NCBI GenBank assembly: GCA_001751155.1
Contig: MAXR01000022.1
Coordinates: 6,610 to 16,862 of the forward strand
Length of the DNA: 10,253 bases
Source: Desulfuromonadales bacterium C00003068
GTDB lineage: Bacteria > Desulfobacterota > Desulfuromonadia > Desulfuromonadales > Desulfuromonadaceae
Direction: 5' to 3'
Part shown: piece after piece, positions 1-10,253 of the stretch
How the letters are laid out: every line of letters starts with the position of its first letter
Numbering within the stretch: the first letter of the stretch is position 1
Program-made: the position numbers and the translations under genes
The notes under the pieces: generated by a model
The model's input: only the letters and a program-made list of their open reading frames with translations
Databases searched by the model: none
Told to the model about the DNA's origin: nothing

Positions 1-771
1 CAGGCGGCGAGTAAGAGGCTCACCGATGTTAAGTAGGATCTTGGTTGTTTCAGTTATCTGAAGGGCAGCCACCAATGCTGGGGTAAAAGAGGGGTTACCC
101 ATCTCTTTCTCTACTCCTGTATGGTTCTCTTTGCCAACATAGAGCGTTTCGAGACTGTTGTCACCTGGTAACTGTGACGTCACCTGACCTGACCAACCGC
201 CGATAGCACCATGCACCAATGGTAAGCTAAGATCTCGACATACGGCTGATAGCTCAAGGCGGACAACGATGCTGTCAAGGGCATCGACAACGATATCCGC
301 ACCAGATAGCAGCTTATTGCCATTATTGGAAGAAAAAGCAAGAACATGGGATGAAATCGTTACTGCTGGATTTAATTCGGCGAGCCGCTCGGCGGTGACT
401 TCGGCCTTGTTGCGGCCGAGATTGTTGATGGTACAAAATGTCTGACGATTGAGATTGTGTTCTTCGAAAATATCGGGATCAATGATGGTGAGGTGGCCAA
501 CGCCAAGGCGTACCAACCCTTCAATAACATGTCCACCCAGTCCACCACAGCCGATGACAACAACGTGGCTGCAAAAAAGACGCAACTGATCTTCACAGGA
601 GAGTACATTACGGTTACGTTGATAGCGTGCCGGTAATATCCCTTGCTTCAGGGCAAGACCTTCAATGACGGCGATACTGGTGTTGAAGGTATTTGCCGCT
701 GCCACTTGATCGGCCCAGAGGAAGAGGCCATTGTACGTATTGTCTGCGATCCATTGATCAACTTCTGACAT
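1..771 (-). CDS. ThiF/HesA/MoeB-family adenylyltransferase (3' end cut by window edge)
   Basis: This E1-like enzyme is expected to activate the C-terminal glycine of a sulfur-carrier protein with ATP in the cytoplasm, most likely the MoaD-like protein encoded just before it. The 257 visible codons show the ThiF fold in order: a lead-in RYQRN near residue 50, the nucleotide loop GCGGLGG at 74-80, Asp98 in IIDPD, Arg109 in NLNRQ, Lys122, and DALDS at 163-167. These match the ATP-binding and catalytic positions of MoeB/ThiF. The start is ATG at 771, one base after the moaD stop, with GGAGG eight bases upstream. The segment after DALDS, where MoeB normally has its first zinc CxxC pair, has no such pair, so this is closer to zinc-free HesA-like proteins. 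The reading frame is open to base 1, so the C-terminus is missing from the window. Family assignment is firm; the exact partner is inferred from position. Confidence 0.9.
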   Translation of the reverse strand, partial: MSEVDQWIADNTYNGLFLWADQVAAANTFNTSIAVIEGLALKQGILPARYQRNRNVLSCEDQLRLFCSHVVVIGCGGLGGHVIEGLVRLGVGHLTIIDPDIFEEHNLNRQTFCTINNLGRNKAEVTAERLAELNPAVTISSHVLAFSSNNGNKLLSGADIVVDALDSIVVRLELSAVCRDLSLPLVHGAIGGWSGQVTSQLPGDNSLETLYVGKENHTGVEKEMGNPSFTPALVAALQITETTKILLNIGEPLTRRL

Positions 772-789
772 TCTAGCCGCCTCCAACCA
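772..789 (-). promoter_or_regulatory. Ribosome binding site of the thiF-like gene, embedded in the moaD Gly-Gly codons
   Basis: The last codons of moaD read GTT GGA GGC GGC TAG and are followed by A and the ATG of the next gene. GGAGG (784-780) is an ideal Shine-Dalgarno sequence eight bases before that ATG. The obligatory Gly-Gly tail of the carrier therefore doubles as the ribosome binding site of its activating enzyme, which should couple translation of the two. Confidence 0.7.
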
Positions 790-1000
790 GTGGGAAAATT
801 CCAACAGAATCACCCTCAGTGAGGAGTTGATCTAGTTCGGCATGCCGATTGTTGATCATCAGTACCCCTAGCTCATCTGTTGGAATTCCAAGTTCAGCTA
901 ATATTTGGCGGGTCGATATGGGTTCAGCATAGTCGCGCTGCTCAATTTTAAAACGATCATTGCGAAACTGGGCAAACAGTTTGACTGTTACTGAAATCAT
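773..1000 (-). CDS. moaD: MoaD/ThiS-family sulfur-carrier protein
   Basis: A 75-aa ubiquitin-fold protein. MoaD proteins carry sulfur as a C-terminal thiocarboxylate and hand it to molybdopterin synthase to build the dithiolene that binds molybdenum or tungsten. Visible evidence is the small size, the N-terminal beta strand ISVTVKLFAQFR, the central segment NNRHAELDQLLTEGDSVGIFP and the terminal LVGGG, whose last two glycines are the activated tail. The start is taken as ATG at 1000, with GGAG at 1009-1006 and five U residues between. The frame stays open upstream to an ATG at 1159, but the extra 53 codons lie in the terminator and leader hairpins and look unlike protein. It sits between an AOR-family enzyme and a ThiF-family activator, so it is probably a paralog dedicated to that enzyme's cofactor and not the housekeeping MoaD. 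A ThiS-like role cannot be excluded from sequence alone. Confidence 0.88.
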   Translation of the reverse strand: MISVTVKLFAQFRNDRFKIEQRDYAEPISTRQILAELGIPTDELGVLMINNRHAELDQLLTEGDSVGIFPLVGGG

Positions 1001-1100
1001 AAAAACTCCGATAGGAGGTTGTCCGACAATAGGAGGCGTAGCGAGAAACCGGTTGAACGGTTTCGCAGTAGTCTCTTCTGTTGTCGGATAGCCTCCTAGT
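1001..1100 (-). promoter_or_regulatory. Structured leader of moaD-thiF; candidate riboswitch-like element
   Basis: On the minus-strand transcript, UAGGAGGC (1098-1091) can pair with GCCUCCUA (1037-1030, 8 of 8) or with CCUCCUA (1018-1012, 7 of 7). The second pairing extends through UCCGACAA (1088-1081) with UUGUCGGA (1026-1019), giving 16 of 18 pairs. The two folds exclude each other. A hairpin at 1066-1041 (arms GCGAAACCG and CGGUUUC with a small bulge) lies inside both. CUCC in the distal arm (1017-1014) is also complementary to the moaD Shine-Dalgarno GGAG (1009-1006) with a 4-nt loop. One fold would free the ribosome site and the other would allow it to be hidden. Molybdenum or tungsten cofactor riboswitches (Moco motif, RF01055) act on such genes, but I cannot confirm membership. 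The near-perfect terminal inverted repeats would also fit a short palindromic mobile element. Confidence 0.5.
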
Positions 1101-1105
1101 TTCTT

Positions 1106-1148
1106 AAAAAATCCGGGTGCACCCAAGGAGGGGGGAGAGTACACCCGG
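1106..1148 (-). terminator. Intrinsic terminator after the AOR gene
   Basis: In the minus-strand transcript, CCGGGUGUAC (1148-1139) pairs along all ten bases with GUGCACCCGG (1122-1113), including one G-U pair. It closes a 16-nt pyrimidine-rich loop and is followed within one base by six U residues. It begins about 20 nt after the AOR stop codon. This is a strong rho-independent terminator, so moaD-thiF would be expressed by read-through, attenuation or its own promoter. The loop includes CCUCCU, complementary to AGGAGG in the leader just downstream. Confidence 0.82.
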
Positions 1149-1168
1149 CAACAAATCATTCGTTTAAT

Positions 1169-2899
1169 TTAGAAGTTCCAGAATTCGTCGATCTCAGAGT
1201 CGGTAAAGTCCCACACTGCATTGTGAGGTAATACTGGATCGCTCTTAAAAAATTCTGGTAAACGGTCCTCTTTATTGGAGAGACCCGCATCGAGATTAAA
1301 TTGACGCTCAAGTTTAAGAACGCTTTTGCCCAACTCGGTCACATCATCACCAGAGAGTTCACAACCGAAACGGGCGTTAATCATATCAATCAGCGCTGGT
1401 AAGCACTCAGGGATATCTAACGCTGGGAAGGCGATAAATACGCACATTCCTGTCGAGTCAATCGCTGCGGTGGCAATTTGTAAATTGCGCGATAATTCAA
1501 CCTGACCAACTTTTGATAATGGATCAACATGACCACCGATACCGAGAATATTGGTGGCAATCGTGTAGCCCGCGGTGTGGTCTGCACCCATAGTACTGGT
1601 GGCGTAGGTGATTCCAATTCCCTTAACGCTACGTGGGTCGTAAGCTGGGATGCCTTGATTTTTAACCACCGGTACACGAGTTACGCCGTAAACTTTTCCG
1701 ACAATACCCGTTCCGCTACCAAGGATACGACCCAGCGGAGTTCCTTGACCAATCTCTTCACGTAACAGGCGCAGAATCCCTTGGCTATCACCAAACTCGA
1801 GAATACCAGCTTCCATGGCGACACCAAACATAACGACTGTTTCGATGGAATCTAGGCCGATATCGTCCATCAAGCTATCGGCTTCAGCAATGGCATCAAG
1901 GTCATTGATGCAACAGTTAGCACCCATACCCCAAATGGTTTCATATTCGAAGCCAGATGTAACATAGTTGCCATCTTTGTCGTTGTATACCTGTGAACAT
2001 TGAATGATACACCCTTTATGACAGCCGTGCTTTGGTTTTCCACCGCGTGCAACAATGGTGTCATGCATGGTTTCGCCACTAATTTTGTCGTGATCGTCGA
2101 ACTGGCCATACCTAAAGTTCTTCGTTGGTAAACCGCCGGCCTCATTGAGAATATTGACTAAGACATTGGTTCCATAGGTGCCCAACCCTTCACCTGCGAC
2201 AGGGTGGTCCATTATTGATTTTGCGAATACACGTGATGCTGCTTTGAATTTATCTGAGTCCGCGAGTTGAAGCGGGCCGCAACCTTCAGCGTCAACAGTG
2301 ATATATTTTATTTTTTTAGAGCCCATTACCGCACCCATGCCACCACGACCGTGACTACGGATTTTACCGTCGGGATCTTTTACTGAGATGTTCGCGGCGG
2401 CCATTTTTAATTCACCGGCAATACCGATGGTCATGACCCCGACCTTATCTCCTTTTTTAGCCATTTGATCTTCAATGACAGCAAAGTTACCTTTACCGAT
2501 CAGTTCAGATTCTTCAGAAATTGTAACACTGTCTTTTGTCACATGCAGGCTGTAGAACTTATCTTCTTGAGGTAGTCCCTCAATGATCAGCGCTTTAATC
2601 CCCATGCGAGCAAATTGCTGAGCTGTTGTACCGCCAGAGTTACTCTCTTTAATACCACCAGTTAACGGACTTTTTGCACCACAGGACATCCGGCCAGATT
2701 GGGCCGCAGCGGTACCGCTAAGTAACCCGGGAGCGAAAACCAATTTATTATTGGGACCTAAAGCATGGCACGTAGGGATAACTTCACTCGCAACAATCGT
2801 AGAAGTGAGTGCTCTACCGCCTAGGCCTACCCATTCAAGGGGAACCTCTTCGGTAGTGGTGGTCAGGTCTGTCATGTTAACGCGGAAAATTTTATCCAT
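1169..2899 (-). CDS. Aldehyde:ferredoxin oxidoreductase (AOR) family tungsten/molybdenum enzyme
   Basis: AOR-family enzymes bind a bis-pyranopterin tungsten or molybdenum cofactor and one [4Fe-4S] cluster in the cytoplasm, and typically oxidise aldehydes to acids or run the reverse. The 576-aa product has the family layout: an N-terminal domain with GRMSCGAKSPLTG and SNSGG near 70-90, RGGMGAVMGSKK near 185-196, cluster cysteines at 293, 297 and 301 (CHKGCIIQC), the EYET motif near 318-321, GADH with His441, and Cys486 in DSTGMC. These line up with Pyrococcus furiosus AOR, whose cluster ligands are Cys288, 291, 295 and 494 and whose active site uses Glu313 and His448. The first three cysteines are spaced CX3CX3C here, not CX2CX3C. 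The start is ATG at 2899, with GGAG nine bases upstream; an in-frame ATG at 2914 overlaps that GGAG and is less likely. No electron-transfer subunit is visible beside it. The substrate cannot be read from sequence. Confidence 0.93.
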   Translation of the reverse strand: MDKIFRVNMTDLTTTTEEVPLEWVGLGGRALTSTIVASEVIPTCHALGPNNKLVFAPGLLSGTAAAQSGRMSCGAKSPLTGGIKESNSGGTTAQQFARMGIKALIIEGLPQEDKFYSLHVTKDSVTISEESELIGKGNFAVIEDQMAKKGDKVGVMTIGIAGELKMAAANISVKDPDGKIRSHGRGGMGAVMGSKKIKYITVDAEGCGPLQLADSDKFKAASRVFAKSIMDHPVAGEGLGTYGTNVLVNILNEAGGLPTKNFRYGQFDDHDKISGETMHDTIVARGGKPKHGCHKGCIIQCSQVYNDKDGNYVTSGFEYETIWGMGANCCINDLDAIAEADSLMDDIGLDSIETVVMFGVAMEAGILEFGDSQGILRLLREEIGQGTPLGRILGSGTGIVGKVYGVTRVPVVKNQGIPAYDPRSVKGIGITYATSTMGADHTAGYTIATNILGIGGHVDPLSKVGQVELSRNLQIATAAIDSTGMCVFIAFPALDIPECLPALIDMINARFGCELSGDDVTELGKSVLKLERQFNLDAGLSNKEDRLPEFFKSDPVLPHNAVWDFTDSEIDEFWNF

Positions 2900-2933
2900 G
2901 GTTTTCGTCTCCATTTCTTAGTTTGCACATCAT
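2892..2933 (-). CDS. Possible 13-codon leader ORF overlapping the AOR start
   Basis: The peptide would read MMCKLRNGDENHG. Its ATG has a GGAG (2945-2942) eight bases upstream, a better-placed ribosome site than many real genes have. Its UAA stop overlaps codons 2-3 of the AOR gene in another frame, so ribosomes ending there could restart at 2899. The same GGAG forms one arm of the leader stem, which would make this ORF the point of control. It may also be chance in a short leader. No homolog is recognised. Confidence 0.3.
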   Translation of the reverse strand: MMCKLRNGDENHG

Positions 2934-3258: not shown

Positions 3259-4266
3259 TTATACCATCATATAGAGAGAATAAAGAGCTAAGCTAAACAT
3301 CAAAAACAGGCTACTGAGGTCTAACCAACCCAATGATGAAACAACCGCTTTATCAGTCTGTTGAGCATGTTGTAGAATCTGATCCACGACCTGTTGAGCC
3401 GCTCTGCTGGTGTCGCTGCGATAATGCCAGTTCGCTCCTTGGGTTAACGCTGTAATGTGTTGTAATCGTGCGTCACTGGCTCGGGTTTGTAGGGTAATCC
3501 CTTGTTCATCGGTGTAAAATCCTTCAATGGTGGGAATCCCCGGTTTGCGAATTGGGATAAGAACCGATTCCTCGCTACCAACGCGCACGCTATAAACGGG
3601 TCGTTGTTTGGTCTTCGGTGATTGGAGGTGGTTCATCAGTTGTTCAAGTGTGTTTTCAGTATCTTCGCCATCAGTAATAAGTACCACCGCTTCATTGGCC
3701 TGAGAGCTGTCATCAGCCATCATGTTATCAGCCGTTGTCAGCGCCGCGACAAGGTCACTACCTGAATCGGTGAGACGCCCCATATCGGTATGGCGAAGGA
3801 TATAGCGGATAAAACCATGGTCGCGTGTTGGTGGTACCACTTCCATACCGTCACGAGCAAAGAAGAACAATCCGACTCGTTCATTTTCCAGTTCATTGAG
3901 GAGATCATTGATAAACGAACGACCTAGGTTTAAACGATTTGCCAGACGCTGCGGCTCAGGGGATTCAAGTACATCTTCGGCTAGCATCGATTTGCTCACA
4001 TCGAGGCCGATCACCAACGTCATCCGTTCATGAGTACTCTGCCCAGCCATAGACGGAACAGTCAAACCTGCTAACGCCAGCGGTAACACGATAAAAAGTG
4101 CCGCAATCAGTGCAAGGCGCAATTGACTGCGCCAGTGTAATCGTGCTCGCTGTCCAGACCAGAGCACACGAACACGTTGCCAGTAGCGTTCTGTCACTAG
4201 GGTGAGCAGCACCATTACGGGTAATGCGAGCAGCAATAATAGGTATGCAGGTTGGGTCCACTTCAT
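3259..4266 (-). CDS. Membrane VWA-domain protein, MxaL-like
   Basis: The 335-aa product has two N-terminal membrane segments (about 8-25 and 49-71), a von Willebrand factor A domain (about 82-300) and a C-terminal membrane segment (about 314-335). This is the BatA/BatB and MxaC/MxaL topology, with the VWA domain outside the inner membrane. The metal-ion-dependent adhesion site is largely intact: Asp89, Ser91 and Ser93 in DVSKSM and Asp199 in ITDGED. The usual threonine is replaced by Ser170 in DSGSD, which could still bind metal. It starts 12 nt after the stop of the mxaK-like gene and is the last gene of the operon. In methylotrophs MxaL is required for active methanol dehydrogenase, probably for calcium insertion. 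Here the client is unknown. A BatA/B-type stress role is the main alternative. Confidence 0.82.
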   Translation of the reverse strand: MKWTQPAYLLLLLALPVMVLLTLVTERYWQRVRVLWSGQRARLHWRSQLRLALIAALFIVLPLALAGLTVPSMAGQSTHERMTLVIGLDVSKSMLAEDVLESPEPQRLANRLNLGRSFINDLLNELENERVGLFFFARDGMEVVPPTRDHGFIRYILRHTDMGRLTDSGSDLVAALTTADNMMADDSSQANEAVVLITDGEDTENTLEQLMNHLQSPKTKQRPVYSVRVGSEESVLIPIRKPGIPTIEGFYTDEQGITLQTRASDARLQHITALTQGANWHYRSDTSRAAQQVVDQILQHAQQTDKAVVSSLGWLDLSSLFLMFSLALYSLYMMV

Positions 4267-4278
4267 CGCATCATCCGT

Positions 4279-5094
4279 TTATTTACGTACCCTTGTTTCA
4301 AGGGGAGCCCCTGGTGAATAGCCGCCGACATTAGGTACGACAGCTTGAAGTTGTCCGCGCATCTCCTCGACCGAATCGCCACCGAGCTGACGACCGACTA
4401 CCACCGATTCTCCTGCGCCAACAATCAGTTCTAAATTCCAGCGTGGGATCATTCGTTGACTAGGTAGCACATCACTTTCATCAACGCTGCGGATCGACTG
4501 TTTAAAATCTTCCACCGCATCAGCGAGAAACGTTCGGCTTTTCTCGCTATCTTGTGAAAATTCAATCAAGCTATAGGCCATCATCACGGATACGGCACCG
4601 CGTAAATTATAGATGGGCCAATGGTGGTCATTATTCTTAGCTTCGTTACCATCGCCGTAGCGCAATTGCTTATCGCAGCGAGCGCGTAGTTGCAGTAATG
4701 ATTGATGAACATCGTTACGCAGGCTATCAAGATCGCTCGAAACATAGCGGTTTTCTGCCCCAGCAACTAATTTGTCGAAATGGGTTAAAGCATCTAGCCA
4801 CTGATGGTAGAGAATAAGATAATCAAGCGATGGTACCGCTAATTGGAGGTGTTGCGCCCGCTGTTGCAATATGGTCAACTCAGAGAGTTCGACGCCTTGC
4901 CCGTTCTGCTCTTCGTTCTGCTGCACTTGTGCCAGTTGCTGATAAAACTGTTGCTCATTTTCATGACGCTGGCTCGCGCGCTGATAACTGATGGCACCAT
5001 CAATAGCGACGACCAAACAGGCGGACAGTAATAGCCAGAATAGGGCAGAGGTTAATGCCGATCTGTTTTTGTTCGTTGATTTCGGTTTAGTCAT
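4279..5094 (-). CDS. Single-pass inner-membrane protein, MxaK-like by position
   Basis: The 271-aa product begins with a short basic segment and one hydrophobic helix at about 15-36. The remaining soluble part is probably periplasmic, rich in Gln, Leu and charged residues, with helical stretches (about 38-90, 95-135 and 155-200) that could form a TPR-like or coiled bundle. It has no catalytic motif. Its place between two VWA genes is that of mxaK in the mxaRSACKL block of methylotrophs, where MxaK is a small membrane protein needed for methanol dehydrogenase activity. The match rests on position and topology, not on a recognised sequence motif. The start at 5094 has AGGTG seven bases upstream. 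It could equally be a divergent BatC/BatE-like partner. Confidence 0.6.
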   Translation of the reverse strand: MTKPKSTNKNRSALTSALFWLLLSACLVVAIDGAISYQRASQRHENEQQFYQQLAQVQQNEEQNGQGVELSELTILQQRAQHLQLAVPSLDYLILYHQWLDALTHFDKLVAGAENRYVSSDLDSLRNDVHQSLLQLRARCDKQLRYGDGNEAKNNDHHWPIYNLRGAVSVMMAYSLIEFSQDSEKSRTFLADAVEDFKQSIRSVDESDVLPSQRMIPRWNLELIVGAGESVVVGRQLGGDSVEEMRGQLQAVVPNVGGYSPGAPLETRVRK

Positions 5095-5123
5095 AATTTC
5101 ACCTTTGTTTCTGTAACGACACT

Positions 5124-6233
5124 TTAGAGTCGGCGTAACGGTGGCACGTTACGTAATAGCACATGGATTAAAACCAGCAACCAGCCAGCAATGGCAAAAA
5201 ATGGCCGAGTGGAGCGGGTCACCTGTGTGACTCGGGTCAGATTGTGGTTGCTTTCGAGGTTATCGATCTCCTGATAGACCTCGTGAATCGTTTGTTGCTG
5301 AAGCGATTTTGCGGTAACAAAAATACGGCCAATATCACGACCAACATCGTCCATGGCGCGCTGAACAGCTGTATCCACTTCACCACCAACTGAGATGATG
5401 TAGAAGCGGATACCGAGAGCTTTCATCAACTCAATCACATTGACGAGGTTGGGAACCTTGCCCTTACGTTTATGAGCGCGCAACGTCGGTTCAATGCGGC
5501 CATCGGTAAACAGAATCACCGCCTTGCCGGTACCAAATTGCTGCTGGTGCAGTTTGTCTGGCACGTCGAGCAGTCCGCCTGGTGCTCCGAGGAGAAAGTT
5601 GCGTAGGGCGGAAATCTCGTCCAGACTTAGACGACTTTTTTCTGGCAGCATGGAAAAGAACGCCGATAACGCCAGCCACACCGCTTCCGAAGCATTGGTG
5701 CCACCACCAGAGGTGAGCTGACGGTAGATGGGAGTATGGTTTTTGCGCCGCAACAGTTCAATTTTCTTGCGTAGCAGGCGGCGATCAAACGTCAACGGTG
5801 CTAAGAGTTTTGGCGTGCTGGAAAACGCGACCAGTCCGATGTAGTCTTCAACGCCTCGAATATCGATAAAACTCTCAATGCCATCGAGTGCCAAATCGTC
5901 GAGCGTTTGGTCGGAGAAGCGGTTAATGGGTCGTTGCATCGAACCAGACATGTCCAAGGTGAGGAAGATCCACTTCGACTCGATAAACTCTTCCACTTCC
6001 TGACGGGCATAACTGATATCGACGATGCTTAACACCAAACACAAATACGCAGCAACAAATAGCAGGGTTTCGTAATGGCGAACGAATGAGGTTGGAGCGA
6101 TCGTTTCAAAACGACTATCGACGCGTGAAAACGGTATCGTTTCGCGCCAGCGCAGGCCTGCAAGCACAATCAATGGCAGCAGCCCTAGCAGCAGAAATGC
6201 CCAAGGGTATGTCAGTTCCAACGAGGTAAACAT
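5124..6233 (-). CDS. Membrane VWA-domain protein, MxaC/BatA-like
   Basis: The 369-aa product has membrane helices at about 11-27 and 56-74, a VWA domain from about 87 to 325, and a last helix near 343-361. Its metal-ion-dependent adhesion site is complete: Asp94, Ser96 and Ser98 in DMSGSM, Thr179 in GGGTNAS and Asp244 in LFTDG. Between the third and fourth elements lies an insertion of about 45 residues (roughly 190-235). Proteins of this type pair with MoxR ATPases, the VWA domain acting as the metal-dependent binding arm toward a client. Its ATG overlaps the stop of the mxaA-like gene by one base (TAATG), indicating coupled translation. Position and architecture fit MxaC; BatA is the closely related alternative. 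Confidence 0.85.
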   Translation of the reverse strand: MFTSLELTYPWAFLLLGLLPLIVLAGLRWRETIPFSRVDSRFETIAPTSFVRHYETLLFVAAYLCLVLSIVDISYARQEVEEFIESKWIFLTLDMSGSMQRPINRFSDQTLDDLALDGIESFIDIRGVEDYIGLVAFSSTPKLLAPLTFDRRLLRKKIELLRRKNHTPIYRQLTSGGGTNASEAVWLALSAFFSMLPEKSRLSLDEISALRNFLLGAPGGLLDVPDKLHQQQFGTGKAVILFTDGRIEPTLRAHKRKGKVPNLVNVIELMKALGIRFYIISVGGEVDTAVQRAMDDVGRDIGRIFVTAKSLQQQTIHEVYQEIDNLESNHNLTRVTQVTRSTRPFFAIAGWLLVLIHVLLRNVPPLRRL

Positions 6234-7945
6234 TACGGATTAGGCACCGTGCTGTTACGGTTGAGTGACTCAGCTGAGCGATGTTTTTCAAGGGTCAACG
6301 TTAATTGTGCAACCTGTTCGAGTAATTCATTCGTTTCGACCTGACTAACTGTTTTCGCCAAAGAGTTGTCGAGATGTTGAAGCGTCTGCTGGACCAGTAA
6401 CCGATATTCGGCGTTGAGATAGGGCTGTAAGTTATTGAAAAAGTGTTGGCTGCCTCCACCCGTAGTGAGACCCTCAGCACCAGCCCAGTCGATGAGATAA
6501 TAACGCAGCGCCTGACCAACTCGTGCTAAAGATTGTGGCGGCTCAAGTGTCTGTTGCAACTGCTGTAATGCTGTTGTTTCGACCACCACTGTTTGTGGTT
6601 GTTGTTGCCGATGCTGCCATTGTCGCCGCAATATCACACCCACACCACTAACAAACAGTACCATCGCGATCAGCGCTCGCAACAGAGTAGAGCGAGGTGG
6701 TTGTGAATCATTTTTAGCCGCAACCAGCTGATCTAATTGAGCCGGAACCTGCAGGCGGTAATCACCTTCGGCATCAGGAACTAGTGCTGCCATGCGCACG
6801 CTGATTGCTGGGGTAGTGATACGGTGAACTTGGCTGGCATCGCCACTTTCGTTACGGTAAAAAACAGGGATGCGCGGTAACTCAAATTCGCCACTGGCGT
6901 AAAGATACAATCGACCTCGGAGTTGAATTGGACTGCGGCGAATGTCCACAGCACTGAGCGGCGTATCGTACTCAATAGCAAACAGATTGCGGAAAACCTG
7001 CGCTGGTTTAAGGTTGAGGTTAGCTAGAGTTCCGAGTTCGATCCTTATATCATCGTTAAAATGGATATCGAGGCTGAATGGTATCGCTGCACCAGCGACA
7101 GCACCCGGGCTGGCGAGGCTGAAGTTCACAGCAATTGGCGCTTCGACCGCTAGAAGTTTAGGGGTTGCGTGCACCACCTGAACATCTTCTGCTAGGCGAT
7201 TGGCTGCCTGCCAAGTCGACATGTGACAGGGATCAATTTGAATAACCTCTTCGCGGCCCGTTAAGTCTGCGGAATAATCAATTGCTCCGATTGATTGGAG
7301 TAGTTGCTGACGCCGTTGCGGGCGAATCTGACTTTTCCAGCGCACACTGATCCGTTCACCGAGAATCTGGGTTTGCCCATCTATGATCAAGGCCGGTAAA
7401 ATATAGCGAATCGTCGAATCGTCACTAGCGAGAATGGTATTGATCACCCCATTACGATGGGTCGCTTTAAAACGGTAGAGGCCTAAGTCTGGCTGGGCTG
7501 GATTATAAATGACATCGACCAACGCTTCGCCGTAGCGCTGGTTAAATTCGACCATCACCTCTGGCATATCACTGCCTGTCGCAAATACTGCTGTAAAGCG
7601 CACCGCTAACCAGTTGTTGTCAATGGTTGGCACCACTGGTTGCCCCTCAGTATCATAAAACCACAGTTCCGCTAGATTCTCCTGCCATACGTGACGCAGC
7701 TGATTGCTTTGCGCGACTAGAGGTGATGTTGGCGATGATGGTGATATTTGTGAAGGTGGGGTGGGTTGCTTACACAGCGGAGTTGCTGCTGTGGCTGAAC
7801 CACAGAATATGGCAACACTGAGCACCAAACAGCCAATAAAGGTGGCACCATGCTTGCCGCCAAGCTTGGCAATGTGCGTCGAGTTGGTGGGGTTAGCAAC
7901 GTTTTTGAAGCGTGTCATTGAGATAAAATGGATCAAAGCGTCCAT
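6233..7945 (-). CDS. Exported, membrane-anchored protein, MxaA-like by position
   Basis: The 570-aa product has a long N-region followed by a hydrophobic signal or anchor at about 33-53 (ending SATAATPLC), a Pro/Ser-rich linker, a large beta-rich extracytoplasmic part to about 415, one membrane helix at about 420-439 (LLRALIAMVLFVSGVGVILR), and a 130-residue helical cytoplasmic tail rich in Gln. Exported domain, helix and cytoplasmic tail are the plan of MxaA and of BatD/DUF4381 proteins that work with MoxR and VWA partners. Its position after the DUF58 gene and before a VWA gene is that of mxaA. It is longer than I would expect for MxaA, so it may be a fusion of BatD-like and DUF4381-like parts. 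The start at 7945 has GGAG seven bases upstream; ATG at 7918 is a weaker alternative. Confidence 0.65.
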   Translation of the reverse strand: MDALIHFISMTRFKNVANPTNSTHIAKLGGKHGATFIGCLVLSVAIFCGSATAATPLCKQPTPPSQISPSSPTSPLVAQSNQLRHVWQENLAELWFYDTEGQPVVPTIDNNWLAVRFTAVFATGSDMPEVMVEFNQRYGEALVDVIYNPAQPDLGLYRFKATHRNGVINTILASDDSTIRYILPALIIDGQTQILGERISVRWKSQIRPQRRQQLLQSIGAIDYSADLTGREEVIQIDPCHMSTWQAANRLAEDVQVVHATPKLLAVEAPIAVNFSLASPGAVAGAAIPFSLDIHFNDDIRIELGTLANLNLKPAQVFRNLFAIEYDTPLSAVDIRRSPIQLRGRLYLYASGEFELPRIPVFYRNESGDASQVHRITTPAISVRMAALVPDAEGDYRLQVPAQLDQLVAAKNDSQPPRSTLLRALIAMVLFVSGVGVILRRQWQHRQQQPQTVVVETTALQQLQQTLEPPQSLARVGQALRYYLIDWAGAEGLTTGGGSQHFFNNLQPYLNAEYRLLVQQTLQHLDNSLAKTVSQVETNELLEQVAQLTLTLEKHRSAESLNRNSTVPNP

Positions 7946-7979
7946 GGTGTTTCTCCGTCATCGTGAATAAATAATTCGC

Positions 7980-8846
7980 TCAGCGTCTTGAGGCCACTCG
8001 GCGAACAAATAGATTGTTGATCTTTTGTTGAACATCGCCTGCGCTCACGTCGATCAGCAACGAACTGACTCCGCTGTGATCTAAACTCTGTGCCGTCTGC
8101 TGTCGATGTTGCTGCTGTAATCGGTCATAATCACGCCAGCGATTGAGGTCGATAGAACAGGTCTGGCCACTTTCCACATCTTTAATTGAAAACTGACCAC
8201 CACGAAAACCTTGATGGTTAACCTCGACTCCACTGAGGAGATGGAGTGCTACCAACTCGTGAGCGGGAATTTTTTGGCGTCCCGTTGCTTCAGTGACCCC
8301 TTGTAATTCATCTAAATTATGTTGGAAGTCGGATAAAATGATACCGAGACAACTGGGTAGTTTCTGTTTCATAAACCGTAGTGCTGGCCGCAAACAGGTG
8401 CGGCGTACGTCAGCACAGTGAGTCATCGATAATTGTTTGGCAATGCGCTGGACCTGGCGAGGATCGGCACTGGGGGGCAGATAATGCTCCACTCCCTGGG
8501 CGTACAACAAGAGGCCACAACGATTATTCTCCTGTATTGCCGCCTGAGCCATGGAGAGTGCAATGTCACGCTGCATCTCTCGTTTACCACCTTGTTGCAT
8601 TGATGGACTGATATCACAGATCAGCATGAGAGTGTAGGCCGCGTCACGAGCAAATTCGCGTACATAAAGGTTTCCCGTACGCGCCCGTGCCTTCCAATCG
8701 ATATGACGAAAGCTGTCGCCCCGCTCATAGGGGCGTAGTGACCACAACTCGTAGCCAACGCCCTTATTTAGTCCTGTCCAATCACCACTGGTTTCTTCAC
8801 GTGGTGGATATTTTAGCTGCAGGTTTAAAAGATATTTTGGTTTCAT
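7980..8846 (-). CDS. DUF58-domain protein, MxaS-like
   Basis: The 288-aa soluble protein has the DUF58 signature RPYERGDSFRHIDWKARAR at 38-56, followed by GNLYVREF, and a VWA-like continuation with Asp78, Ser80 and Ser82 in CDISPSM. DUF58 proteins are almost always encoded next to MoxR ATPases and are thought to link the cytoplasmic ATPase to the membrane VWA partners. It starts 17 nt after the moxR stop, with GGGG five bases upstream of the ATG, and 34 nt separate it from the next gene. In methylotroph clusters the gene in this slot is mxaS. Its molecular role in any system is poorly defined. Confidence 0.87.
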   Translation of the reverse strand: MKPKYLLNLQLKYPPREETSGDWTGLNKGVGYELWSLRPYERGDSFRHIDWKARARTGNLYVREFARDAAYTLMLICDISPSMQQGGKREMQRDIALSMAQAAIQENNRCGLLLYAQGVEHYLPPSADPRQVQRIAKQLSMTHCADVRRTCLRPALRFMKQKLPSCLGIILSDFQHNLDELQGVTEATGRQKIPAHELVALHLLSGVEVNHQGFRGGQFSIKDVESGQTCSIDLNRWRDYDRLQQQHRQQTAQSLDHSGVSSLLIDVSAGDVQQKINNLFVRRVASRR

Positions 8847-8863
8847 CTTTGCCCCGCTAAAGG

Positions 8864-9922
8864 TTACAGAGCACGTGAATGATTCGAGTGATCGATCACA
8901 TCTGCTACAGCGAAGGGGGAAACCGTCGCCACCACGGCTTGGAGGATATCGCTCTCACACACTCCTTCAAGAATGGCGGCATCGCTTAATATCAGACGAT
9001 GACCGAGTACTGGAACAATGCACGCATCGACATCATCAAAACTGACATAGTTGCGGCGCTGTAAAAATGCGTAACTTTTGCAGTAAGCGACCAAATGTTC
9101 CGCTGCACGTGGCGAATTACCGACCTGTACATAACATGACACCATGCTCGGTGCCGTGCTATTTTCAGGACGCGTGCGCTGGCAGATGGTTAAAATGTAG
9201 TGAATCACCTCTTTAGTGAGTGAAACGTTGTTGGCCACATAGTCCTGAATAAATACTGCTTGTTCTGGTTGCAAGATTTTCTCTAACGACTGATCGCCAG
9301 CCTGAATTCCTTGACCACGGCTGGTTAGCAACGCCGCTTCGTGGTGTGACTGAGGGTAAGTGATGGTTATTTTGGCCATGAAACGATCAAGCTGAGCCTC
9401 AGACAGGGGATAGGTTCCCAGCTGCTCAACGGGATTTTGGGTTGCTAGCACCATAAACAGTTCGGGGAGCGGATAGTTATCGCTATCGACACTTACTGCT
9501 TGTTCTTGCATCGCTTCGAGCAGTGCAGATTGAACCTTGGGCGAGGCCCGGTTGATCTCATCGGCAAGTAAGATGTTGCAAAACACCGGACCCGCATGGA
9601 AAACAAAGGTACTCTGGCTTTCATCGTAAACCATGGTGCCTGTGACATCGCTGGGTAACTTATCGGGGGTAAACTGAATGCGGTGATAATCACCACCGAT
9701 GGTTCGCGAAAAAGTTGCCACGGCCAGACTTTTTGCTAAGCCGGGAACCCCTTCAAGTAAAATATGTCCACGCGATAGCATGGCGCACAGAATCGCTTCC
9801 ACCATTGGTTGTTGACCGACAATCACCGTCGCAATCTGTTGACGAATCTGCTCTAACTGGGTGTAATACGTTGCCGCTGTGGCGTCCAGTTGCTCTGATT
9901 GATGAGATTGTATCTCTGACAT
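8864..9922 (-). CDS. moxR: MoxR-family AAA+ ATPase
   Basis: The 352-aa cytoplasmic AAA+ ATPase has Walker A GVPGLAKS at 58-65, Walker B ILLADE at 117-122 followed by INRASPKVQSALLEAMQE, and the sensor segment VLATQNP, then the C-terminal lid domain. MoxR ATPases act as chaperones that remodel or metal-load client enzymes together with VWA-domain proteins, as in methanol dehydrogenase activation and in magnesium or cobalt chelatase relatives. The start is taken as ATG at 9922 (MSEIQSHQ), with an AAGGA about ten bases upstream. An ATG at 9997 would add 25 residues that do not resemble the family and would run into the upstream gene. It heads the six-gene block and is probably expressed with it. 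Confidence 0.93.
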   Translation of the reverse strand: MSEIQSHQSEQLDATAATYYTQLEQIRQQIATVIVGQQPMVEAILCAMLSRGHILLEGVPGLAKSLAVATFSRTIGGDYHRIQFTPDKLPSDVTGTMVYDESQSTFVFHAGPVFCNILLADEINRASPKVQSALLEAMQEQAVSVDSDNYPLPELFMVLATQNPVEQLGTYPLSEAQLDRFMAKITITYPQSHHEAALLTSRGQGIQAGDQSLEKILQPEQAVFIQDYVANNVSLTKEVIHYILTICQRTRPENSTAPSMVSCYVQVGNSPRAAEHLVAYCKSYAFLQRRNYVSFDDVDACIVPVLGHRLILSDAAILEGVCESDILQAVVATVSPFAVADVIDHSNHSRAL

Positions 9923-10001
9923 CAAATTCCATCCTTCACGCTTTAAGTTGACCGTTTCAATTTCGGCCCTTAGACAGGTTCGCCACGTTGCCAACAACGC
10001 G

Positions 10002-10253
10002 CTAGAAATAGATAAACTTCTTGCGATCTCGAATGATCAAATAGAGGAAAAATGGTCCTCCAAGCAGGGCGGTTAGTACGCCGATTCGTAAACCACCACT
10101 GGCGACAATTCGTACCAAGCAATCCGCGTAAACCACCATCACTGAGCCGAGCAAACCTGATGCTGGCAACAAAATTCGGTTGTCAGAGCCAACGAAGCTA
10201 CGCATCATGTGTGGGGCAATCAAGCCGACAAAGCCAATGCCACCCGCCACAGC
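10002..10253 (-). CDS. FecCD/BtuC-family ABC transporter permease (C-terminal part only)
   Basis: The last 83 codons are visible and the gene continues past the right edge. The family signature AVAGGIGFVGLIAPHMMR opens the fragment. It is followed by the helix around LLPASGLLGSVMVVYADCLVR and the closing GVLTALLGGPFFLYLI, which is standard for permeases importing ferric siderophores, heme, cobalamin or other metal chelates across the inner membrane. The substrate cannot be read from this part. No terminator is visible in the 79 nt before moxR, so both may lie on one transcript. That would place a metal-chelate importer upstream of the MoxR/VWA genes. Binding-protein and ATPase genes, if present, lie outside the window. 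Confidence 0.9.
   Translation of the reverse strand, partial: AVAGGIGFVGLIAPHMMRSFVGSDNRILLPASGLLGSVMVVYADCLVRIVASGGLRIGVLTALLGGPFFLYLIIRDRKKFIYF

Follow-up and report, generated by a model that had tools for sequence, protein, structure and literature searches.

We analysed a 10,253-nt stretch of DNA, here called the window, and find that it carries a block of six genes, all on the minus strand, which encode in order a MoxR ATPase, a DUF58 protein, an exported anchored protein, a VWA protein, a single-pass protein and a second VWA protein. The first gene (8864..9922, mxaR-like position) encodes a MoxR-family AAA+ ATPase (Pfam AAA_3, 6.8e-60) with intact Walker A (GVPGLAKS) and Walker B (ILLADE) motifs; its listed frame begins with a TTG at 9997, and the ATG at 9922 is the likelier start. 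The DUF58/VWA-like protein in the mxaS-like position (7980..8846; Pfam DUF58, 4e-32) contains a DISPS motif, and no transmembrane segment was found in it. The mxaA-like position is occupied by a 570-aa exported membrane-anchored protein (6233..7945) with two hydrophobic segments, for which no Pfam match passes the cut-off (DUF4381 is weak, at 0.053) and whose structure model (pLDDT 75) gives weak Ig-like matches. The VWA protein in the mxaC-like position (5124..6233; Pfam VWA_2, 3.7e-10) has two N-terminal and one C-terminal transmembrane segments and an intact MIDAS, the residues of which are invariant across 12 sequences. It is followed by a 271-aa single-pass protein in the mxaK-like position (4279..5094), with a large predicted periplasmic part, an invariant PRWN.E in alignment A4 (n = 16) and no match above cut-off among Pfam and NCBIfam models, and by the second VWA protein in the mxaL-like position (3259..4266; Pfam VWA_2, 2.4e-15), with an intact MIDAS (DVSKS/TDG). 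For both VWA proteins the charge distribution predicts a periplasmic VWA domain, which agrees with the outward orientation assigned to them in the original prediction. The Walker A and B motifs together with the MIDAS motifs identify a MoxR AAA+ protein with VWA partners. Other genomes contain the same gene set, with identities of about 30 to 96%, and, judged from sequence, the six-gene order is far beyond chance and the block is real.

The mxaRSACKL genes encode MoxR, DUF58, an anchored protein, a VWA protein, a small single-pass protein and a further VWA protein. The window block has the same gene order on one strand, as had been recognised beforehand, and Pfam supports the identities of MoxR, DUF58 and both VWA proteins. 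The proteins in the A and K positions have no family model match above cut-off, and at 570 aa the A-position protein is larger than MxaA, which has about 300 aa. A plasmid tblastn search for an Mxa-like VWA with the window VWA protein gave no match. In the methanol dehydrogenase operon of Methylorubrum extorquens, where the mxaRSACKL order is described (PMC6414531), these genes are linked to mxaF, J, G, I and D. None of the five was recognised here, neither in the window, for which their absence had first been noted, nor elsewhere on the 26,978-base contig, where a Pfam scan of 23 frames (10 in the window, 7 in L003 and 6 in L002) revealed no methanol dehydrogenase and no linkage of the block to methanol dehydrogenase genes.

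The genes that flank the block within the window are likewise on the minus strand. Next downstream lies the pyranopterin AOR that had been predicted there (1169..2914), an AOR-family pterin oxidoreductase with both domains of an aldehyde:ferredoxin oxidoreductase (Pfam AFOR_N, 2.1e-59; AFOR_C, 2.7e-76) and 73% identity to the AOR adjoining the same block in genome G016. It is followed by a MoaD/ThiS-like sulfur carrier for the pterin cofactor (773..1159; Pfam ThiS, 1.5e-7) and a ThiF/MoeB-like adenylyltransferase (1..813; Pfam ThiF, 2.9e-48) that continues past the window edge; further along the contig (L002) there are MoaE and a MoaA-like gene (radical SAM/Mob_synth_C by Pfam). No Moco riboswitch was found before the window AOR; one is present near the corresponding place in L013, L014, L015 and L017. 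On the other side of the block the window ends in the C-terminal part of a FecCD/BtuC-type permease (10002..10253; Pfam FecCD, 3.1e-23), and upstream, outside the window (L003, G000:C22:17669-22878), there are a Peripla_BP_2 protein, an ABC ATPase, a membrane protein and a fused EutB-EutC protein, that is, an ethanolamine ammonia-lyase (EAL). The families matched (FecCD, scanned over the last 83 residues of the permease only, ABC_tran and Peripla_BP_2) point to a BtuCDF-like transporter with putative cobalamin specificity.

The upstream EAL joins EutB (8.7e-139) and EutC (5.8e-33) in one protein (Pfam), and a close relative of it aligns with solved EALs. The EutB active-site motifs are retained in 29 or 30 of 30 Sec-type sequences, the one miss being a truncated sequence, and in 4/4 Tat-type sequences; for this we used the E. 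coli EAL residue numbers, which are consistent with the alignment to solved EALs. A Sec-type signal peptide is predicted on the cluster EAL copies, and no signal was seen on EALs outside the exported clade. Among the best 120 of 4198 database EALs the signal rule called 107 Sec-like, 2 Tat-like and 11 without signal, and most of these 11 have one when read by eye. The calls come from a simple hydropathy and motif rule together with inspection by eye; the Sec rule gave calls as well for three Tat-type EALs, for the fragment L018 and for an internal segment of the L094 EAL, which has no signal, and Tat motifs were identified by eye and by pattern. The EALs of G005 and G478, which lack their N-termini, were placed in the Sec class by clade and synteny and that of G176 by eye, whereas the cytosolic class rests on inspection by eye of 31 of 32 N-termini, G093 being the exception. 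The predicted Sec signal speaks against a cytoplasmic location of the cluster EAL, and we infer that it is exported. A second, signal-less EAL in the same genome (G000:C6) adjoins an EutA-like gene, on a stretch that has no block; this is the only place where the genome has such a gene, and no full-length EutA was found in the cluster.

The original prediction proposed comparing gene neighbourhoods across genomes and looked for a conserved association of the block with AOR. This association exists, the gene after the block being AOR in 12 of the 18 EAL-type loci in which that position can be seen, and a lack of it, named beforehand as telling against the prediction, was thus not observed; the block also tracks the Sec-type EAL. 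An EAL is present in 16 of the 18 block loci with enough upstream sequence (in two of the 16 only as end pieces), and also in L155, L163 and L171, where the contig holds no more than the first part of the block. Across the phylum, seven families have the block. It was detected with a profile of the 570-aa protein (A570; alignment A1, n = 17), chosen as marker for the EAL-type block, in the order-level survey, with A570 and VWA1 profiles in the phylum survey, and with VWA1 alone in the G165 family; over both surveys and this family it is found in 20/29 genomes with a Sec-type EAL, 0/10 with a Tat-type EAL and 0/32 with cytosolic EAL only. Genome-level Fisher values are inflated by related genomes; counted by family, the block is present in 7/7 for Sec and 0/2 for Tat, with a p of only 0.03. 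At the order level, both EAL and block occur in 13 of 136 genomes, EAL only in 2, block only in 1 and neither in 120; in the sole block-only genome the contig ends beside the expected EAL.

There are exceptions in both directions. The assemblies of nine of the 29 Sec-EAL genomes lack an EAL-type block, and five of these genomes (G275, G349, G370, G450 and G503) belong to one genus, g160. In G349 the run of EAL, M296 and BtuDFC is seen to end without a block, which indicates that the block is not indispensable in this genus. The other block-less assemblies are G294 (91% complete), G003 (87%), G132 (67%) and G176, whose contig ends inside MoxR. Conversely, the block loci L090 (G302) and L197 (G370) adjoin neither EAL nor transporter, so this type of cassette is not specific to EAL. 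We rejected both as EAL-type on account of a short A protein, the missing transporter and DUF3300 or spermidine-synthase-like neighbours, and G370, at first a profile match, was later dropped from the EAL-type count.

We favor the explanation, with a probability of roughly 0.6, that the six genes constitute a MoxR/DUF58/VWA cassette for maturation and have as their client the upstream fused EutB-EutC protein, exported unfolded through Sec. The original prediction had left open whether such a block is re-used for a metal-dependent or an envelope enzyme or has its true client outside the window. Re-use appears to be the case, the likely client being an envelope enzyme encoded shortly beyond the window edge, upstream on this contig, and direct service to the AOR is unlikely. 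In the mechanism that we suggest, apo-EAL would cross the membrane through Sec and would have to acquire adenosylcobalamin in the periplasm. By analogy with Mxa, NorQD and CbbQO, MoxR, together with DUF58, would hydrolyse ATP in the cytoplasm, and the two membrane-anchored VWA proteins, along with the 570-aa and the single-pass protein, would pass the drive on to EAL in its apo or spent form and open its conformation, so that adenosylcobalamin could enter or damaged cobalamin leave. The BtuCDF-like transporter and the six-helix protein may carry the corrinoid over the inner membrane. Outside the cytoplasm EAL would then split ethanolamine into ammonia and acetaldehyde, and the latter could diffuse in, where AOR, from its family and linkage, probably oxidises it to acetate with reduction of ferredoxin.

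An alternative is that the block and the BtuCDF-like transporter together serve corrinoid uptake, with the VWA proteins as ligand-binding partners and EAL merely consuming the imported B12. A 2012 genome paper on Pelobacter (Syntrophotalea) carbinolicus lists what is the same cluster, with fused eutBC, a corrinoid-related ABC transporter, VWFA proteins, an ATPase and aorA2 and with no eutA, and its account names the transporter, the VWFA proteins, the ATPase and an outer membrane channel side by side and mentions a putative cobalamin transport system (PMC3543383), which is close to this alternative. BtuC does precede MoxR in those EAL-type loci whose contig covers this side. Against this, G349 carries the EAL and the transporter without the block, the block-like sets L090 and L197 have no such transporter adjoining, and the MoxR/VWA pairs NorQD, CbbQO and RavA/ViaA are described as acting on enzymes (PMC9976466), and we consider corrinoid uptake unlikely as the role of the block.

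Somewhat more doubtful still is that the main task of the block is to restore EAL that has undergone suicide inactivation, in place of EutA, rather than to load it in the first place. Full-length EutA is missing from 25/29 Sec-EAL genomes, the account of P. carbinolicus also remarks on the absence of eutA (PMC3543383), and CbbQO is a MoxR/VWA pair able to act on an inhibited enzyme (PMC9976466). However, the absence of EutA says little, since 20/32 cytosolic-EAL genomes also lack it; these counts leave out weak matches, which score about 18-38 bits across a small middle part and are probably FtsA-like. In the four Tat-EAL genomes examined for block and EutA alike, neither the one nor a full-length copy of the other is present, although their EAL is expected in the same compartment, and replacement of EutA as the sole role is weakened accordingly. 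One genome, G385, has Sec-type EAL, block and full-length EutA together. Since Tat-type EALs, expected to be exported folded, occur without the block, loading of an apoenzyme exported unfolded is the likelier core role of the block, with repair as a possible second one.

Direct service to AOR, by metal or pterin insertion, is very improbable, even though AOR so often follows the block, and we rejected AOR as the direct client. AOR directly adjoins EAL in L160, L161 and L162, where no block is present on stretches of 10.8, 6.3 and 14.2 kb, and in six EAL-type loci (L016, L085, L087, L088, L089 and L200) the block is not followed by an AOR. AOR therefore seems to be the enzyme that acts next in the pathway and not the client. 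Moreover, the block tracks the Sec-type EAL, and P. carbinolicus is described as having three further AOR paralogues, with homologues in many Geobacteraceae (PMC3543383). The topological difficulty already noted in the original prediction, that the VWA proteins face outward while AOR is cytoplasmic, would vanish with an exported client. A general Bat-type stress cassette lying here by chance is just as improbable, for the similarity of the mxaC-position VWA to BatA (51.5 bits, cut-off 380) and of the mxaL-position VWA to BatB (51.5 bits, cut-off 350) falls far below curated cut-offs, no BatD match was found among the block proteins with Pfam and NCBIfam models, and the linkage to the EAL cluster recurs.

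The proposed maturation of an exported EAL by the block has parallels in known systems. The mxaRSACKL client is a periplasmic cofactor enzyme served by a cytoplasmic ATPase with outward-facing partners, as proposed here, but that client is a PQQ/Ca enzyme whereas ours would be a cobalamin enzyme. In NorQ/NorD and CbbQ/CbbO a MoxR AAA+ protein and a VWA partner act on one dedicated enzyme, as we propose for the block, by cofactor insertion or activation of an inhibited form, and the most likely location given for NorQ and NorD is the cytosol (PMC9976466); the window VWA proteins, unlike these, have membrane anchors and a predicted periplasmic orientation, and are joined by two further anchored proteins. 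With the EutBC/EutA system the cluster EAL shares the EutB and EutC families and the EutB active-site motifs, and differs in its fused subunits, its predicted Sec signal peptide and the lack of an adjoining EutA; on incidental inspection, no genes for a microcompartment were noticed in the loci.

The conserved cluster around a signal-bearing B12 enzyme suggests, as far as genomes can tell, that extracytoplasmic assembly of a B12 radical enzyme may be possible in bacteria. To our knowledge, the only extracytoplasmic corrinoid enzymes are the corrinoid reductive dehalogenases, which are exported folded by Tat. A periplasmic adenosylcobalamin enzyme would thus be unexpected, and one would have to ask by what route coenzyme B12 gets into the periplasm; MoxR/VWA cassettes are known for maturing metal enzymes, and a cobalamin radical enzyme would, if true, be a new class of client. 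A wider proposal, for which we judge the chances evenly balanced, is that an adenosylcobalamin radical enzyme leaves the cytoplasm unfolded by way of Sec and is converted to the holo form in the periplasm by an mxa-type ATPase cassette with which Tat-EAL lineages dispense, and that an extracytoplasmic lyase serves in place of the eut microcompartment to keep acetaldehyde off the cytosol, with AOR collecting what diffuses inward. We found no description of an exported EAL, or of a MoxR/VWA role for EAL, in the literature searched, with subscription papers mostly outside its scope. The P. carbinolicus account of the cluster states no EAL export signal, mxa comparison or maturation role, and the term MoxR is absent from the text of that paper (PMC3543383). 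The Sec/Tat split within one enzyme family offers a natural test of the purpose of the cassette, and the cluster provides a different setting for studying the poorly understood functions of mxaRSACKL. In line with the favored explanation, in the G016 locus a cobalamin riboswitch and a TonB receptor follow the AOR.

The six genes of the block (MoxR, DUF58, the 570-residue anchored protein A570, VWA1, the 271-residue single-pass protein K271 and VWA2) and those for the AOR-family enzyme, MoaD and ThiF lie on the minus strand; frames and Pfam bear out the original prediction of the block. The contig (C22, with the window at 6610-16862), from a 2.74-Mb draft genome (G000) of 461 contigs, was analysed past both window ends, and database matches name Desulfuromonas and related MAGs as close relatives of the window proteins. 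Downstream of ThiF, Pfam identifies a MoaA-like gene and one for MoaE, and then a citrate lyase set encoded on the opposite strand. Upstream of MoxR lie, with increasing distance, a FecCD permease (BtuC-like), a Peripla_BP_2 protein (BtuF-like), an ABC ATPase (BtuD-like), a 296-residue protein matching no Pfam family (M296), and a fused ethanolamine ammonia-lyase (EAL), whose frame of 798 residues joins EutB (8.7e-139) to EutC (5.8e-33) in a single chain. Beyond the EAL are a solute-binding protein piece (SBP_bac_6), a weak match to an OmpA-like protein and a sigma-54 regulator.

With the gene content, gene order, signal sequences and co-distribution observed here, we infer that the EAL is the client of the block. 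The EAL begins with MVKISRLAIGGAMSLVLLVAGFAGAVS, a Sec-type signal, and is thus predicted to be exported. A simple rule calls a signal in the other cluster EALs with an available N-terminus (it is missing in L018, L091 and L171) except that of L163, where it is visible by eye; among the best 120 of 4198 database relatives, the rule gives 107 Sec-like, 2 Tat-like and 11 without signal. Twin-arginine motifs occur in EALs of one family (SRRKFC, SRREFC and NRREFC; L165, L166, L168, L201-L208, L210) and in L157 (IPRRAFL), and if these signals work, these enzymes would be exported folded. All 4 Tat sequences keep the EutB motifs at six positions, which correspond to E. coli R160, Q162, N193, E287, F329 and D362, a numbering consistent with the alignment, as do 29 or 30 of the 30 Sec sequences.

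An A570 search returned 15 database proteins and gave hits in 6 of the 58 relatives, in 14 of the 136 order genomes and in 11 of the 395 phylum genomes (about half of this last group weak), its own protein and genome included in each count. The common order is SBP6, EAL, M296, BtuD, BtuF, BtuC, MoxR, DUF58, A570, VWA1, K271, VWA2, often followed by AOR and MoaD. The EAL is present in 16 of the 18 block loci with sufficient upstream sequence (the window with its upstream stretch L003, L013-L018, L088, L091, L102, L104, L105/L106, L107, L109, L112, L113), in L018 and L091 as end pieces only, and in all three loci where the contig holds only the block start (L155, L163, L171). Contigs too short upstream were left out (L085, L086, L087, L089, L103, L114, L115, L198-L200), and in families f96 and f118 EAL and block lie on different contigs. 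In the other two of the 18 loci, neither EAL nor transporter was found. One, L090 451-7727 (G302:C680), reads MoxR-DUF58-short A-VWA-K-VWA beside a DUF3300 protein and possibly serves another client of the same cassette type; the other, L197 3619-12549 (G370:C150), is a comparable block flanked by a spermidine-synthase-like protein on one side and a HAD-like hydrolase on the other, in a genome with a Sec-EAL at another locus. M296 (L003 2979-3788), a helical membrane protein with a half-MFS-like predicted structure, is conserved after the Sec-EAL wherever that side is visible except in L160-L162, and is a possible corrinoid or ethanolamine carrier.

EutB was found in 31 of 136 genomes of the order and 35 of 395 of the phylum (522 genomes in all, the two sets sharing nine). 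Sec-EALs occur in 29 genomes (families f1, f4, f25, f65, f90, f96, f118), 20 of which carry the EAL-type block, 13 of 15 in the order and 7 of 14 elsewhere. Those without it are G003 (87% complete), G132 (67%), G294 (91%), G176 (85%; not counted as having a block because its contig ends inside MoxR) and five of genus g160 (G275, G349, G370, G450, G503). In G349 (C21; L159 7142-13347), EAL, membrane protein and BtuDFC stand in order with no block after BtuC, and this Sec-EAL lineage seems to do without it. Three genomes have a block and no EutB match of the Sec type: in G127 the contig ends beside the expected EAL site, in G467 an EAL end piece lies on the block contig, and the G302 block is of the other type. 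The VWA1 profile matches 11 of 395 genomes at 284 bits or more, G302 and G370 included. The block is absent from all 10 Tat-EAL genomes (G407 and nine of the ten EutB-positive f53 genomes, G544 being uncounted for its unreadable N-terminus; top VWA scores of 39 and 50 bits) and from all 32 with only a cytosolic EAL. Fisher tests give 3e-15 for the order table and 1.5e-4 for the block in Sec versus Tat genomes, both too small owing to kinship among genomes, and 0.03 at the family level.

As to the task of the block, we favor cofactor loading of the EAL, because the Tat-EAL genomes lack the block and, in the four tested, a full-length EutA (at least 147 bits); repair of the EAL is perhaps an added role. 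No full-length EutA was found in 25 of the 29 Sec-EAL genomes. Three of the other four (G000, G005, G009) have EutA or a EutA-like protein next to a second fused EAL that belongs to the signal-less clade; in the fourth, G385, it lies apart from the EAL. EutA or a EutA-like protein occurs in 12 of the 32 cytosolic-EAL genomes. The second EAL of G000 (L094 7922-11618; C6:15921-19617) has no signal peptide, and its EutA-like neighbour scores 219 bits.

In both VWA1 and VWA2 a positively charged loop separates two N-terminal TM segments, the VWA domain carries DxSxS and TDG motifs, and a third TM segment lies at the C-terminus. A570 and K271 are anchored, with large parts predicted to be periplasmic. 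No hydrophobic segment was found in DUF58, and those of MoxR are weak, as is typical of a soluble protein. On this predicted topology ATPase and client would therefore be on opposite membrane sides, as they are in the Mxa system.

MoxR/VWA pairs are described as inserting iron (NorQD) and as activating rubisco (CbbQO; PMC9976466). For P. carbinolicus, a 43-gene cluster is reported with fused, duplicated eutBC, eutA missing, VWFA proteins, an ATPase, a corrinoid-related transporter and aorA2, and cobalamin transport was proposed for it (PMC3543383). New relative to that account of the cluster are the export signals on the EALs, the mxa-like gene order, the contrast between Sec and Tat enzymes, and the interpretation of the block as a maturation system.

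In a 41-sequence tree, in which the tree program flagged long branches, the exported EALs form a single clade (support 100/99). Its first branches are Sec-EALs of f118, f96 and f90 (G385), all from block genomes, and the Tat-EALs are nested inside with moderate support (94/68, 93/94). This topology is compatible with, and no proof of, an ancestor with Sec signal and block and a later switch to Tat. G212, which also has an exported EAL, encodes a fused EAL without signal peptide that is divergent in sequence and sits at the end of a very long branch (L169 6095-8272; C277). Family f81 has EutB frames about 705 residues long (L136-L138; G354, G396, G283), in which no signal peptide was seen; they score like classical EutB and may be a separate fusion or a long frame.

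Second Sec-EALs, accompanied by a binding protein and a membrane protein of their own (L117, L118, L096, L108, L110, L105 1413-3737), have no block alongside; the 2012 paper suggests that the two lyases may act on different substrates, ethanolamine and choline (PMC3543383). AOR, which would oxidise the acetaldehyde, follows VWA2 in 12 of the 18 EAL-type loci with a view of that side (the window, L014, L015, L017, L102, L106, L107, L109, L112, L115, L198, L199) and not in L016, L085, L087, L088, L089 or L200; in L088 it lies instead at the far side of the EAL. In L160, L161 and L162, with no block within the available stretch, AOR adjoins the EAL itself.
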